Assembly (NCBI GenBank): GCA_019637295.1
Contig: JAHBVX010000006.1
Location: 372,001-436,000, forward strand
DNA: 64,000 bases
Direction of reading: 5' to 3'
From: Polyangiaceae bacterium
GTDB lineage: Bacteria; Myxococcota_A; Polyangia; Polyangiales; Polyangiaceae
Shown: positions 53,213 through 59,430 of the stretch, piece after piece
Layout of the letters: each line of letters opens with the position of its first letter
Numbering within the stretch: the first letter of the stretch is position 1
Made by a program: the position numbers and the translations under genes
The notes under the pieces: model-generated
The model's database searches: none
What the model was told of the DNA's origin: nothing
The model's input: only the letters and a program-made list of their open reading frames with translations

Positions 53213-53797
53213 TCAGGCCTTGGACAACCGCTGCAGGATGCCCTTCGAGGCAACCTTGAGCGTCTCGAACACGCCCGCGCCGGTGCGCGCGCTGGCTTCG
53301 ACCTCCGGGGCGCGACTGGGGTTCAGAGCGCGACTCAGCTCTTCCACGGGCATCGCGTTCGGCAGGTCCCGCTTGTTGTACTGCACCACGTAGGGCATGT
53401 CGCTGAAGTCGAGCCCGTGCTCGCGCAGGTTGAAATGCAGGTTGTCGAGGCTCTCCTGGTTGGCCTCGAAGCGCTCTTCCTGCGAGTCCGCGACGAAGAC
53501 CACGCCATCGGCCCCCTTCAGGATGAGCTTGCGGCTCGCATCGTAGAAGACCTGTCCGGGCACCGTGTACAGGTGGAACCGCAGCTTGAACCCGCGCACC
53601 TGCCCGAGCTCGAGCGGCATGAAGTCGAAGAACAGCGTGCGCTCGCTCTCGGTGGCCAAGGAGATGAGCTTGCCCTTGGCCTGCTCGGAGCTGCGCTCGA
53701 AGACGTACTGCAGGTTGGTCGTCTTCCCGCACAAACCGGGCCCGTAGTAGACCAACTTGCAGTTGATCTCCTTGCTCATGTGATTGATGAAGCTCAT
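53213..53797 (-). CDS. mglA: MglA-type small GTPase
   Basis: A 194-residue Ras-like GTPase very similar to MglA, which sets the leading pole for gliding and type IV pilus motility. The P loop [12 protein letters not shown] is at residues 17-28, the signature [18 protein letters not shown] near residues 78-95, and the NKRD base-recognition motif at residues 141-144. Length matches MglA (about 195). In M. xanthus mglB precedes mglA; here a TerB-like gene is upstream instead (15 bases), so this could be an MglA paralog with a different partner. Confidence 0.9.
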
Positions 53798-53812
53798 GGG
53801 TGGGTCTCGAGA

Positions 53813-54361
53813 TCAGGAGCTGAGGGCGGCTCGCAGGCGCCCGACGACCTCGGTCACTGCGGCGGCGGCGACGCCCTCAGCCATGCCCAGGTCACTGCAC
53901 AGCTCGGATAGCACATCCGCCTCGGGTTCGGCGAGCTTGCCGTCCGCGAGCGCAACCAGAACCGCGAAGCCGAGCGCGTCCTTGCGGCTCGCGTCATCGG
54001 TGAAGTCGGCGGCGGCACGGCGCAGGCGCTCCCGTCGTCCGAGCACACTGCACGCAGCTTCCAGATCGCGAAAATGCGTCTCGAGCACGTCGGCTGTCGC
54101 CTCTCGCCCGGTGGCCTGCTCGAGCAAGTCGGCCAGGGCAGCGCACTCCTCGTCCGCGAAGCCGTCAGCGGACGCCACGAGGTAGGCTACCTCGAGCAGC
54201 GAGACGAAGCGCGCGGCCTCCGTCGTCGCCTCGTCGTGTTTGACGGCGTGTGCGCCGTGCTTCAACGCCTCCGCGGCCTCCGCGACGTCGAGCGCGGTAC
54301 AGACCGCCGCCCGCAACGCAGCTTGTTCGAACTCGCTCAAATCGACCTGTGCAATCCCCAT
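53813..54361 (-). CDS. TerB-like helical protein
   Basis: A 182-residue all-helical protein. The stretches FVSLLEVAYLVASADGFADE and EECAALADLLEQATG, and later ALGFAVLVALADGKLAEPEA followed by VLSELCSDLGM, are two TerB-type repeats with the acidic ADG-x-x-x-x-E metal site. TerB folds bind metal and act as membrane or signalling scaffolds. It lies directly upstream of mglA in the same direction and is likely in its operon, which suggests a link to polarity control. Confidence 0.7.
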   Translation of the reverse strand: MGIAQVDLSEFEQAALRAAVCTALDVAEAAEALKHGAHAVKHDEATTEAARFVSLLEVAYLVASADGFADEECAALADLLEQATGREATADVLETHFRDLEAACSVLGRRERLRRAAADFTDDASRKDALGFAVLVALADGKLAEPEADVLSELCSDLGMAEGVAAAAVTEVVGRLRAALSS

Positions 54362-54454
54362 CCGCCGGACTTGCCACGGGGCGGAGCGCCCCGCAATGCG
54401 GCGCGACGGGCGATCGCGACCCGCTCGGGATTGAGCTAGACTCGCTCGCTGGCG

Positions 54455-55546
54455 ATGCGGCTCGTCCTTCCCTCGTTCATGCTCCTGGCGATGGCGGGGT
54501 GCTCCTTGCTCGCGCCGGGGGACGAGGAGCTCTCGGGTGGGACGCCCGAGGGCGGCGCAGGTGGCGGGTCCGGCGGCGCGCCCAGCGGTGGCGCCGGGGG
54601 GAGCGGTGGGACCGGAGGAACCGGCGGCGGGCCCAGCGGCGGCGCTGGAGGCAGCGGCGCCGGAGCTAGCGGCGGCGGCGCTCCCGCCGGCGGTGGCGGA
54701 ACGGGAGGCTCCGCGTGCACGCCGACGTCGGGTACGGCCGCAGCGCGTCCGGTGGAACTGTATGTGCTGCTCCATCGCAGCGGAGGCCCGGGACCTTTCT
54801 CTACGATCAAGAACCAGGTCAGCCAGTTCGTGAACGCGAGCGCTTCGAGCGGGGTCTCGGTGGGGCTGCAGTACGTGCCCGCCACGTCCGCCGCGCAGGA
54901 CTGCCTGGGCGCCGGGTACTCGACTCCGGCTGTACCGTTCGGTCTGCTCCCTCAACACGCGGCCGCGATCGACGCTTCGTTGTCGGCCACGAGCATCAAC
55001 ACGGGCGGCTTGTTCGAGGGGGCCGCGCACGGGTTGGCGTCCGTCGGCGCAACCCGGGTCGCGGCCAGCCCCGACGCGCAGTTCAGCGCGGTGCTGGTCC
55101 CCACGAGCGAACAGTACGGCTGCTCCTCGAGCGCTCCTGCCGTGGCCACGATCCTGGCCTCCGCGTGGCCCACGGTCTCCACCTACGTCGTTCCGCTCTC
55201 GGGCGCATTGGGCGCAGCCGCGGATCAGTGGGCCGCCGCCGGGGGCACGGTGGACCGACTCGGCACCGGCTCGCTCAGCGACCTGCAGTCCGCGCTTGCG
55301 CAGGCCAAGCGCCCCTGCCAGTTCGCGCTCCCCGCCGGGGTGCCGGCCACGAACGTCCAGCTGACACTGAACGCGAGCTCGTCCCTGGCGCTGCCGTACC
55401 GCAGCACCGCCGGGCAGTGCGGCGGCAGCGACGGCTGGTTCGTCGCCCCAGCCAGCGCCCAGACCGCGGTGCTGTGCCCCGTGTCGTGCCGCAAGGCGAT
55501 CGCGAGCTCGGGCACCAGCGTGGACTTCGCGACGACCTGCGACTGA
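54455..55546 (+). CDS. Gly-rich lipoprotein with vWA-like domain
   Basis: A 363-residue lipoprotein (LLAMAGC lipobox). A linker of about 65 residues is nearly all Gly/Ser/Ala/Pro. The globular part (about residues 85-363) begins ARPVELYVLLHRSGGPG and resembles a von Willebrand A-type fold in which the MIDAS aspartate position D-x-S is changed (LLHRS). It continues with VSVGLQYVPATSAAQDC and TYVVPLSGALGAAADQWAAA. The cysteines are probably paired. Metal binding may be lost; adhesion is a plausible role. Confidence 0.65.
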   Translation: MRLVLPSFMLLAMAGCSLLAPGDEELSGGTPEGGAGGGSGGAPSGGAGGSGGTGGTGGGPSGGAGGSGAGASGGGAPAGGGGTGGSACTPTSGTAAARPVELYVLLHRSGGPGPFSTIKNQVSQFVNASASSGVSVGLQYVPATSAAQDCLGAGYSTPAVPFGLLPQHAAAIDASLSATSINTGGLFEGAAHGLASVGATRVAASPDAQFSAVLVPTSEQYGCSSSAPAVATILASAWPTVSTYVVPLSGALGAAADQWAAAGGTVDRLGTGSLSDLQSALAQAKRPCQFALPAGVPATNVQLTLNASSSLALPYRSTAGQCGGSDGWFVAPASAQTAVLCPVSCRKAIASSGTSVDFATTCD

Positions 55547-56469: not shown

Positions 56470-59430
56470 ATGCTCCGCGGGGCCGTGTATCAGATCGTCC
56501 AGCACGAGGTCTTCTCCGAGGCGACCTTCTCGTGGGAGGTGTTCGCGCCCGACATAGCGCAGGCCGCACAGCCAGGTCAGTTCGTCATGCTTCGTCTGCA
56601 CGAGCAGGGCGAGCGCATCCCGCTGACCATCGCGGACTTCGATCGACGACGAGGTACGGTCACGTTGGTCATCCAGGCGCTCGGTCGGTCCACGCGCGAG
56701 ATGCTCTCCAACTACGGCCAGGGGGATTGGTTCCTGGACCTGGTGGGCCCCCTCGGCGTCCCCAGCGAGATCGACGAGCCCGGCCACGTCGTGCTGGTGG
56801 GCGGCGGCCTGGGCGTCGCGCCCATCTACCCCCAGGCCCGCGCGTTCAAGGCAGCCGGCCACCGCGTGACCAGCATCATCGGCTTTCGCAGCAAGGACCT
56901 GGTGTTCTGGGAGGACCGCTTCCGCGCCATCAGCGACGAGGTCATCGTGTGCACGGACGACGGCAGCTACGGGCGAGCCGGGCGGGTCACGGACGCCCTC
57001 GCCGAGGTGATCGCCGCCGTACCACCCCCGGCGCGGGTCATCGCCATCGGGCCGCTGCCCATGATGCGCGCCGTATCCGACGTGACGCGACCGAGCGGCA
57101 TCCTCACCGTCGTCAGCTTGAACGCCATCATGGTGGACGGCACGGGCATGTGCGGCTCCTGCCGGGTGACCATCGGCGGCGAGGTTCGTTTCGCGTGCGT
57201 GGATGGCCCCGACTTCGACGCTCACGCCGTGGATTTCGACGAGCTGGCGGTGCGCCAGCGACGGTTCCGCGGGTCGGAAGCACGAGCCGAGCGAGACTAT
57301 GCGCACGTCTGCAACCTGGAGACGCAGCTCTTCGAGCAGGGCAAGCGCAACTACAAGAAGCTCGCGGCGGTCTCCCCCACCGCCACGCCCATGGCCGAGC
57401 GGCCCGCGCTCGCGCGTGCGCAGAGCTTCGACGAGGTCGGGCTGGGCTACACCGAGGCACAAGCCTTGCTCGAGGCAGAGCGTTGTATCCAGTGCGTGCG
57501 ACCCACCTGCGTCGCCGGCTGCCCTGTCAGCATCGACATCCCACGCTTCATTCGGCACGTGTTGGTGCGCGACCTGCCGGGTGCGCTCTCGGTGATCCAC
57601 GAGAGCAACCTGTTCCCCGCCGTCTGCGGGCGCGTCTGTCCCCAGGAGAGCCAGTGCGAGGCACAGTGCATCCTGCACAAGAAGATGGAGCCCGTGGCCA
57701 TCGGGCGGCTCGAGCGCTTCGTCGGTGATCACGCGCCAACGCCCCTGGGCGAGCCCGTCGCCAAGCGCCCCGACAGGGGCCGCGTCGCCATCGTGGGCTC
57801 GGGTCCGGCGGGGCTCGCGTGCGCGGGTGACCTGGCCCGAGAGGGAGTGGAGGTCGTGGTCTACGAAGCGCTGCACGTCGTCGGCGGCGTGCTGCGCTAT
57901 GGCATCCCGAGCTTTCGGCTGCCGCGCGAGTCGATCGAGAAGGAGATCCGCGCGCTCGAGCAGCTCGGCGTACGCTTCGAGGTCAACAAGGTCGTCGGTC
58001 GCACCTTCACGCTGCAGCAATTGCTCGGCGAGATGGACTTCTCGGCCGTGTTCGTCGCCACCGGGGCGGGTTATCCGGTGTTCCTCGGTCTGCCGGGTGA
58101 GGGGGCGGGCCAGGTGCTCAGCGCCAACGAGTTTCTCACTCGCGTCAACTTGATGGGCGGGGATCGCTTCCCGTACCGCGACACCCCCGTCGAGCTTGGC
58201 GAATCCGTGGTCGTGATCGGCGCCGGCAACACCGCCATGGATTGCCTGCGCGTCGCGAAGCGACTGGGCGTGGGCGAGGTGCGCTGCGTCTACCGACGCA
58301 CCGAAGCGGAAGCGCCGGCGCGCGCCGAAGAGCTGCGGCATGCACGCGAGGAGGGCATCGAGTTTCACTTTCTCCGTGCGCCAACGGAGGTGCTGCTGGA
58401 CGAGCAGCAGAACGTCAGAGCCGTTCGCTGCCAGCACATGGAGCTCGGCGAGCCCGACGCCACCGGACGCCGCCGCCCGGTTCCCGTGGAGAGCCAGTTC
58501 ACCGACTTTGCTGCCACGACCGTCATCTACGCCCTCGGCACGCGCGCCAACCCCATCGTCCCGCGCTCTAGTCAGGACCTGAAGCTGACCCAGTGGGGCT
58601 ACATCGAGGCGGATCCGGCGACGCAAGCCACCAGCATCCCGGGGGTATTTGCGGGCGGCGACATCGTCACCGGCGGCGCCACGGTGATCTTGGCTCTAGG
58701 CGCGGGGCGGCGCGCGGCTCGGCACATCAGCGCGTACCTGGCAGCGCGAGCGTGGCCGCCGCCGGTCGTCGACGATGGCCACGACGAGTTCCCGGCCGGC
58801 GAGGGCAAGTGCCCGCGCTGCCACGGTCGGATCGAAGCCGGGGAACCCTACGTCTGCTGCGCGGGAGCCACCATCCGCTGGCAGTGCCTCTCGTGCCACA
58901 AGGTCCACGAGGGCTTCGCCTTTCCCTTCGGTCGCTGCTCCGCGTGCGGAGGCAAGCTCGCCCGCGAGCACGAGACCCACGCCCCGGACGATCTAGCCCG
59001 CGAAGCCGTACAGCAGGCGATGGAGATCGAGCTCGGCGGCTACGCGTTCTACGACCAGGGCGCCAAGACTACGGCGGATCCGGAGCTTGGGGACATGTTC
59101 CGGCGCCTCGCGGCCATGGAGCGCGAGCACCTCGAGTTGCTCGCCGCGCGCTACCACATCGCTACCCCCGAGCTCACGGGCGCTCCCAGCACTCCTGCGC
59201 TGTACATGGCTGCGGACGCCCCGCCCTCGAGTCCGCTGGAGTTACTCGCGCTCGCGCTGGCGATGGAGGAGCGCGCCAAGGCCTTCTTCGCCGAGCGCAC
59301 CGCGGGGCTCACGCGCGGCAGCGCCGTGTGGCGCATGTACCGCGAGCTCGAGGCCGAAGAACACGAGCACGTCGCCTTGATCGAGACGGAGATCCAGCGC
59401 CGACAGGGCGGCAAGCGGGGGCTGTTGTGA
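56470..59430 (+). CDS. NfnA-NfnB-zinc ribbon-rubrerythrin fusion oxidoreductase
   Basis: A 986-residue multidomain redox protein. Residues 1-285: SudB/NfnA-like FAD and NAD(P) domain with GGGLGVAPIYP and the 2Fe-2S motif DGTGMCGSCRV...FAC. Residues 325-760: GltD/NfnB/SudA-like unit with Fe-S cysteines CIQCVRPTCVAGCP and CGRVCPQESQCEAQC, FAD-binding VAIVGSGPAGLACAGDL, NAD(P)-binding VVVIGAGNTAMDCLRVAKRL and FAGGDIVTGGATVI. Residues 780-835: double zinc ribbon (CPRCHGR, CLSCHK, CSACGG). Residues 836-980: ferritin-like domain with EREHLELLAARYH and EEHEHVALIE. The first two parts form an electron-bifurcating NADH:ferredoxin NADP reductase in anaerobes; here a peroxide-reducing rubrerythrin-like tail is attached. 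Confidence 0.8.
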   Translation: MLRGAVYQIVQHEVFSEATFSWEVFAPDIAQAAQPGQFVMLRLHEQGERIPLTIADFDRRRGTVTLVIQALGRSTREMLSNYGQGDWFLDLVGPLGVPSEIDEPGHVVLVGGGLGVAPIYPQARAFKAAGHRVTSIIGFRSKDLVFWEDRFRAISDEVIVCTDDGSYGRAGRVTDALAEVIAAVPPPARVIAIGPLPMMRAVSDVTRPSGILTVVSLNAIMVDGTGMCGSCRVTIGGEVRFACVDGPDFDAHAVDFDELAVRQRRFRGSEARAERDYAHVCNLETQLFEQGKRNYKKLAAVSPTATPMAERPALARAQSFDEVGLGYTEAQALLEAERCIQCVRPTCVAGCPVSIDIPRFIRHVLVRDLPGALSVIHESNLFPAVCGRVCPQESQCEAQCILHKKMEPVAIGRLERFVGDHAPTPLGEPVAKRPDRGRVAIVGSGPAGLACAGDLAREGVEVVVYEALHVVGGVLRYGIPSFRLPRESIEKEIRALEQLGVRFEVNKVVGRTFTLQQLLGEMDFSAVFVATGAGYPVFLGLPGEGAGQVLSANEFLTRVNLMGGDRFPYRDTPVELGESVVVIGAGNTAMDCLRVAKRLGVGEVRCVYRRTEAEAPARAEELRHAREEGIEFHFLRAPTEVLLDEQQNVRAVRCQHMELGEPDATGRRRPVPVESQFTDFAATTVIYALGTRANPIVPRSSQDLKLTQWGYIEADPATQATSIPGVFAGGDIVTGGATVILALGAGRRAARHISAYLAARAWPPPVVDDGHDEFPAGEGKCPRCHGRIEAGEPYVCCAGATIRWQCLSCHKVHEGFAFPFGRCSACGGKLAREHETHAPDDLAREAVQQAMEIELGGYAFYDQGAKTTADPELGDMFRRLAAMEREHLELLAARYHIATPELTGAPSTPALYMAADAPPSSPLELLALALAMEERAKAFFAERTAGLTRGSAVWRMYRELEAEEHEHVALIETEIQRRQGGKRGLL

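Follow-up and report, generated by a model that had tools for sequence, protein, structure and literature searches.

The window analyzed here is a 64,000-nucleotide stretch of DNA from a Polyangiaceae bacterium. On its plus strand, positions 56470 to 59430 hold one open reading frame (ORF) that starts with ATG, contains no internal stops, and encodes 986 amino acids. Its product joins, in a single chain, an NfnA/PyrK-type unit, an NfnB/GltD-type unit, a four-cysteine (Cys4) module, a rubredoxin-like module, and a ferritin-like bundle. Genes nearby in the window encode a sensor kinase, an MglA/Arf-like GTPase, a TerB-like protein, secreted proteins, a TFIIB-type zinc ribbon, and a thiolase. The small GTPase gene adjoins the TerB-like gene on the minus strand (53213-54472), and this pair sits upstream of the secreted-protein neighbors of the fusion gene. 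None of the window neighbors is peroxide-linked, and a neighborhood comparison of fusion-bearing genomes found no gene conserved beside the fusion between distant genera. An operon-based function was rejected on these two counts. The absence of conserved neighbors is as expected of a self-contained enzyme.

The preliminary description had proposed NfnA-like and NfnB-like units in one chain, followed by two zinc ribbons and a rubrerythrin-like domain. Pfam searches of the fusion protein matched DHODB_Fe-S_bind (residues 218-255, 3e-12), Fer4_20 (316-422, 7e-40), and Pyr_redox_2 (438-743, 3e-33); with PDB sequence matches to both Nfn subunits, they bear out the Nfn portion. The Rubrerythrin family also matched, at residues 845-893 (1.2e-4 with the whole protein and 1.7e-6 with the C-terminal piece), barely above the curated cut-off. 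Similarity of the C-terminal part to the rubrerythrin family is weak but significant. A full-length AlphaFold model of the fusion (pLDDT 68.7, pTM 0.41) is unfit for inter-domain distances or for tracing an electron route.

The architecture is already an NCBI database family and is not new to databases. NCBIfam NF009413 (PRK12775) has the same architecture end to end, and residues 6-986 of the query align with positions 1-1006 of the 1006-position model at 1475 bits. Although the alignment is full-length, this score falls short of the curated threshold of 1895 bits, which two relatives exceed (1964 and 1926 bits). The family name, "putative trifunctional 2-polyprenylphenol hydroxylase/glutamate synthase subunit beta/ferritin domain-containing protein", chains automatic labels, and the function it states is putative. 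The reading set out below corrects this misleading label of a conserved protein family. Searches of the open-access literature, by PRK12775 and by domains, found no published description or functional test of the architecture. A 2019 review of Nfn fusions distinguishes four patterns, A to D, none of which carries such a C-terminal domain (PMC6405883). The arrangement is unusual and testable, and it holds no surprise of principle.

The fusion was surveyed in genomes of Myxococcota. Full-length fusions occur in 16 of the genomes searched, including the source, which span 11 genera and seven families; the 15 other copies share 59-84% identity with the query over the full alignment. In a sample of 284 Myxococcota genomes, the C-terminal module was strongly matched in 15. 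Thirteen of these are fused, one (G030) carries the module as a separate gene, and one (G095) holds the module alone. In G030, 11 bp separate the end of a fused nfnAB from the start codon (ATG) of the separate module gene. The fused copies group in a tree of the Nfn core, with G030 as sister and five unfused Nfn pairs outside (support of 1.0 for fused copies plus G030 and 0.78 for fused copies alone, with a single outgroup). The simplest history suggested by these sequences is that the genes were neighbors first and fused later. Retention of a G030-type adjacency, followed by fusion, argues that both halves work together. Joining of two genes by an assembly or annotation error, a concern raised at the outset, is ruled out by the 16 fused copies and the split-gene relative. 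The plasmids searched contained Nfn and lacked the full fusion.

Two loci depart from this pattern. The stand-alone module of G095 (L060, 8552-9196, plus strand) comprises the Cys4, rubredoxin-like, and bundle parts; the search of this genome turned up no Nfn. About 2 kb upstream of L060 sits a gene resembling NuoH of complex I. The fusion of G147 (L062, 6903-9887, minus strand) has lost the first CxxC, E933, and E964 while keeping the Nfn part and the rubredoxin-like cysteines. This copy looks degenerate from the sequence and amounts to a natural di-iron-site mutant.

The Nfn half begins with an NfnA/NfnS/PyrK-like unit (residues ~5-270; 56482..57279, plus strand). Its PDB sequence matches include Pyrococcus furiosus NfnI-S (5jca_S, 2.3e-96 to 7e-95) and 4ylf_A (5e-75). 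The unit is predicted to hold FAD, an NAD(H) site, and a [2Fe-2S] cluster bound by D223, C228, C231, and C243, all of which are invariant in the fusions. The NfnB/NfnL/GltD-like unit (residues ~305-759; 57382..58746, plus strand) matches Thermotoga maritima NfnB (4ylf_B, 9.5e-144 to 1.7e-143) and P. furiosus NfnI-L (5jca_L, 6e-129 to 1e-128). Two [4Fe-4S] clusters, a bifurcating-type FAD, and an NADP(H) site are predicted for this unit, and eight cluster cysteines (339, 342, 347, 351, 386, 390, 396, and 400) are invariant in the fusions. Relative to NfnAB/NfnSL (4ylf, 5jca), the query has both subunits, all Fe-S ligands including the unusual Asp and Glu, and the NAD-site motifs in common. It differs in that its subunits are fused and followed by Cys4 and ferritin-like domains, which add about 220 residues. 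No second NfnAB pair was found in the source genome among the matches listed.

Both unusual ligands, D223 and E415, are present in 16 of 16 fusions and in unfused Nfn. E415 aligns with Glu126 of P. furiosus NfnL, a cluster ligand; when cysteine replaces this Glu126, the two branches become uncoupled (PMC9503767). An Asp on the [2Fe-2S] cluster and a Glu on the proximal [4Fe-4S] cluster also occur in Xfn (5vj7), so D223 and E415 are no proof of bifurcation. Xfn is not known to use NAD(H). Two motifs of the NAD(H) region, GFRSKDLVFW and DDGSYG, match NfnI in the query and are absent from Xfn 5vj7_B, and the score is 325.8 bits against NfnI compared with 177.2 bits against 5vj7_B. By these sequence criteria, the Nfn half resembles the bifurcating NfnI more closely than Xfn. 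The proposed NfnAB identity is well supported, and the support extends to the unusual ligand on each cluster type and to the NAD-site motifs of NfnI type.

Two Cys4 modules follow, at residues 781-797 and 806-826; the preliminary description had called them zinc ribbons. The first (58810..58860, plus strand) reads CPRC-x11-CC (C781, C784, C796, C797) and is conserved in 15 of 16 fusions. Its CxxC-CC pattern is desulforedoxin-like (PF06397), with a spacing of 11 instead of 15. In hhalign, the desulforedoxin comparison gave 18%, which lends this identity no support above a zinc-ribbon control at 30%. The second module (58870..58971, plus strand) reads WxCxxC-x13-CxxC, and its cysteines (C806, C809, C823, C826) are invariant in all 18 alignment rows. 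Here the zinc-ribbon label does not hold up well. The module reaches 95% in hhalign against rubrerythrin-type rubredoxin modules, with controls at 2.7% and 7.9%, which makes a short-spaced, rubredoxin-like iron center for electron transfer the most likely assignment, rather than a zinc ribbon. This assignment makes electron transfer to a di-iron site plausible. The module lies N-terminal to the bundle, in reverse order, and a rubredoxin in front of the bundle is the order described for "reverse-type" rubrerythrins (PMC5114695).

The C-terminal region (58987..59409, plus strand) was predicted to form a ferritin-like four-helix bundle. An AlphaFold2 model of the last 218 residues, built from an 18-row alignment (pLDDT 86.7, pTM 0.86), shows four long helices and, besides them, a small region with strands. 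E-x-x-H motifs occur at 884-887 and 964-967, with partner glutamates at 854 and 933. Four of these ligands are invariant in 16 of 16 fusions, and E933 and E964 are kept in 15, L062 being the exception. Conservation, motif positions, and the model helices together point to a complete symmetric di-iron set (E854, E884/H887, E933, E964/H967). The ferritin-like domain proposed earlier is thus upheld, including its second Glu/His pair.

The closer affinity of the bundle lies away from classical rubrerythrins. In these proteins, the seventh ligand is a second Glu at +3 from the one in helix C (E94xxE97). The corresponding position in the fusions, +3 from E933, is a nearly invariant Ala (A936), whereas the classical rubrerythrin L081 reads ENFE there, so the fusion bundle has no counterpart of the seventh ligand. 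Sequence matches in the PDB are 2fzf (1.8e-9) and 2oh3, titled COG1633 (8e-6). In hhalign, the bundle reaches 84% against L002, a COG1633-like protein of the same genome, and 1.4% against each of two classical rubrerythrins. Structural neighbors are led by bacterioferritins and include the COG1633 entry 2oh3, at VIA Z scores of 13.6-13.7, which for a modeled helical bundle are supportive but not specific. Classical rubrerythrins were not among the top structural rows, a result still compatible with a relation to them. Overall, the bundle resembles COG1633-like and bacterioferritin-like proteins. The term rubrerythrin-like remains apt for the four-helix bundle with two ExxH motifs and two glutamates and for the adjoining rubredoxin-like module, and misleads as to subfamily, seventh ligand, and module order.

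This affinity raises the question of iron handling, in which the bundle would act as a ferroxidase or in NAD(P)H-driven iron release, like ferritin or encapsulated ferritin. Bacterioferritins are the best structural neighbors, and there is weak sequence similarity to EncB/EncC cargo. However, four-helix similarity is generic, a Z of about 13 carries little weight for helical bundles, and a storage cage is unlikely to be assembled from chains whose N-terminal enzyme spans 770 residues. The neighbors include no iron-transport genes, and we regard such a role as quite improbable. The ligands themselves admit another function, since di-iron oxygenases, which are fed by FAD-2Fe-2S reductases, share the E/ExxH/E/ExxH pattern. 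The fusion could on that account be an O2-activating oxygenase or hydroxylase with an unspecified substrate, like soluble di-iron monooxygenases with an FAD/2Fe-2S reductase. Yet no oxygenase family was matched significantly in Pfam (COQ7 at E 0.18), a rubredoxin-like module beside the bundle is typical of rubrerythrins, and no pathway neighbors are conserved. An oxygenase is likewise a decidedly doubtful proposition.

We favor the hypothesis, at a probability of about 0.55, that the protein is a single-chain Nfn with its own di-iron peroxide (or O2) reductase, fed via the rubredoxin center. From the parts, their order, the conserved cofactor and di-iron ligands, and the evolutionary linkage of the halves, we infer the metal content, the oxidant, and every electron-transfer step as follows. 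Like NfnAB (NADH-dependent ferredoxin:NADP+ oxidoreductase), the Nfn core would pass electrons between the NADH, NADPH, and ferredoxin pools. With peroxide (or O2) present, electrons would exit, the probable point of departure being either the distal [4Fe-4S] cluster in the NfnB unit or the FAD in the NfnA unit, and hop singly to the rubredoxin-like Fe(Cys)4 center. This center would reduce the di-iron site in the four-helix bundle, which in turn may reduce H2O2 to water and, with less certainty, O2. The preliminary description had proposed that pyridine-nucleotide or ferredoxin electrons would be routed to peroxide; O2 or a different oxidant could serve in its place. The fusion would then take over from the two separate partners that reverse rubrerythrins need, NAD(P)H:rubredoxin reductase and rubredoxin. 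Matches to the COX1 family (four) and to the POR family (five) in the source genome make O2 exposure or respiration and a ferredoxin pool both likely.

Two clostridial systems provide precedents. Clostridium reverse rubrerythrin (revRbr) resembles the query, by its described order, in placing a short-spaced rubredoxin-like module before a di-iron bundle; the query differs in its COG1633-like bundle, its extra CxxC-CC module, and its fused electron donor. The separate reverse rubrerythrins of C. difficile perform NADH-linked H2O2/O2 reduction when NROR and rubredoxin are added (PMC7482061). The class F flavodiiron protein of the same species, FdpF, holds NADH:rubredoxin reductase, rubredoxin, and flavodiiron domains, all those needed, in one chain (PMC7482061). 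As proposed for the query, FdpF thus unites a pyridine-nucleotide reductase and a rubredoxin with a di-iron domain that reduces the oxidant, although this di-iron domain is unrelated (metallo-beta-lactamase-like plus flavodoxin) and its reductase is a simple NROR, not Nfn. These precedents, together with the domain and ligand evidence, the invariant rubredoxin-like module, and conservation across 11 genera, favor electron delivery from Nfn to the di-iron site.

Several observations argue against such delivery. A strongly oxidizing sink on a bifurcating enzyme should short-circuit it. L062 keeps the Nfn and rubredoxin-like parts without E933, E964, and the first CxxC, and in G095 the module stands alone with no Nfn found. 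The ligand set of the bundle is moreover of the bacterioferritin/COG1633 type and not that of proven peroxidases. Some of these points would suit a Nfn core that balances redox normally, with the Cys4 and ferritin-like part serving as a sensor or brake with little catalytic electron flow. An oxidized di-iron site or a lost metal would then signal oxidative stress and alter core activity. Such a role would avoid the energetic waste of a high-potential sink on a bifurcating enzyme, fits the retention of the rest of the chain in L062 after loss of two di-iron ligands and one Cys module, and accommodates the possible Zn in the first module. Nearly all members, in 11 genera, nevertheless keep the full di-iron set and the rubredoxin-like site, more than a sensor obviously needs, and the module of G095 stands alone, without Nfn. 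A sensor or brake is accordingly an unlikely explanation. A bolder variant, oxidant-driven electron bifurcation, seems exceedingly improbable, namely that the di-iron site is the high-potential acceptor that replaces or alternates with NAD+, such that H2O2/O2 reduction by one of two electron streams from NADPH drives the other to low-potential ferredoxin. If it were true, an aerobe-capable cell would make reduced ferredoxin at the expense of the oxidant.

Flavin-based electron bifurcation has its simplest model in Nfn, and what keeps enzymes of this kind from leaking electrons to strong oxidants is a standing question in the field. A complete Nfn, a rubredoxin-like relay, and a di-iron oxidant-reducing site in one chain would offer a built-in test of whether leakage is wanted or gated. 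If wanted, the arrangement would be a valve that drains NADPH and ferredoxin under oxidative stress. Were electrons to reach the oxidant in this way, one enzyme would link the NADH, NADPH, and ferredoxin pools to detoxification. For rubrerythrin-like proteins, many of which have no assigned electron donor, the fusion also offers a candidate.

Other ferritin-like genes of these genomes deserve mention. Aerobic-type rubrerythrins have been linked with a gene called RFO (PMC5114695). In the L002 region (G000, contig C20, 146741-148651), the COG1633-like ferritin-like gene lies less than 1 kb from a match to the POR family (2-oxoacid:ferredoxin oxidoreductase), on the opposite strand. A separate family of ferritin-like proteins of roughly 165 amino acids (L040, L041, L042, L044, L045) occurs in several Myxococcota, with repeated bundle halves, a conserved C-terminal W-x-x-x-x-x-F-[AS]-P-F motif, and no Cys modules.
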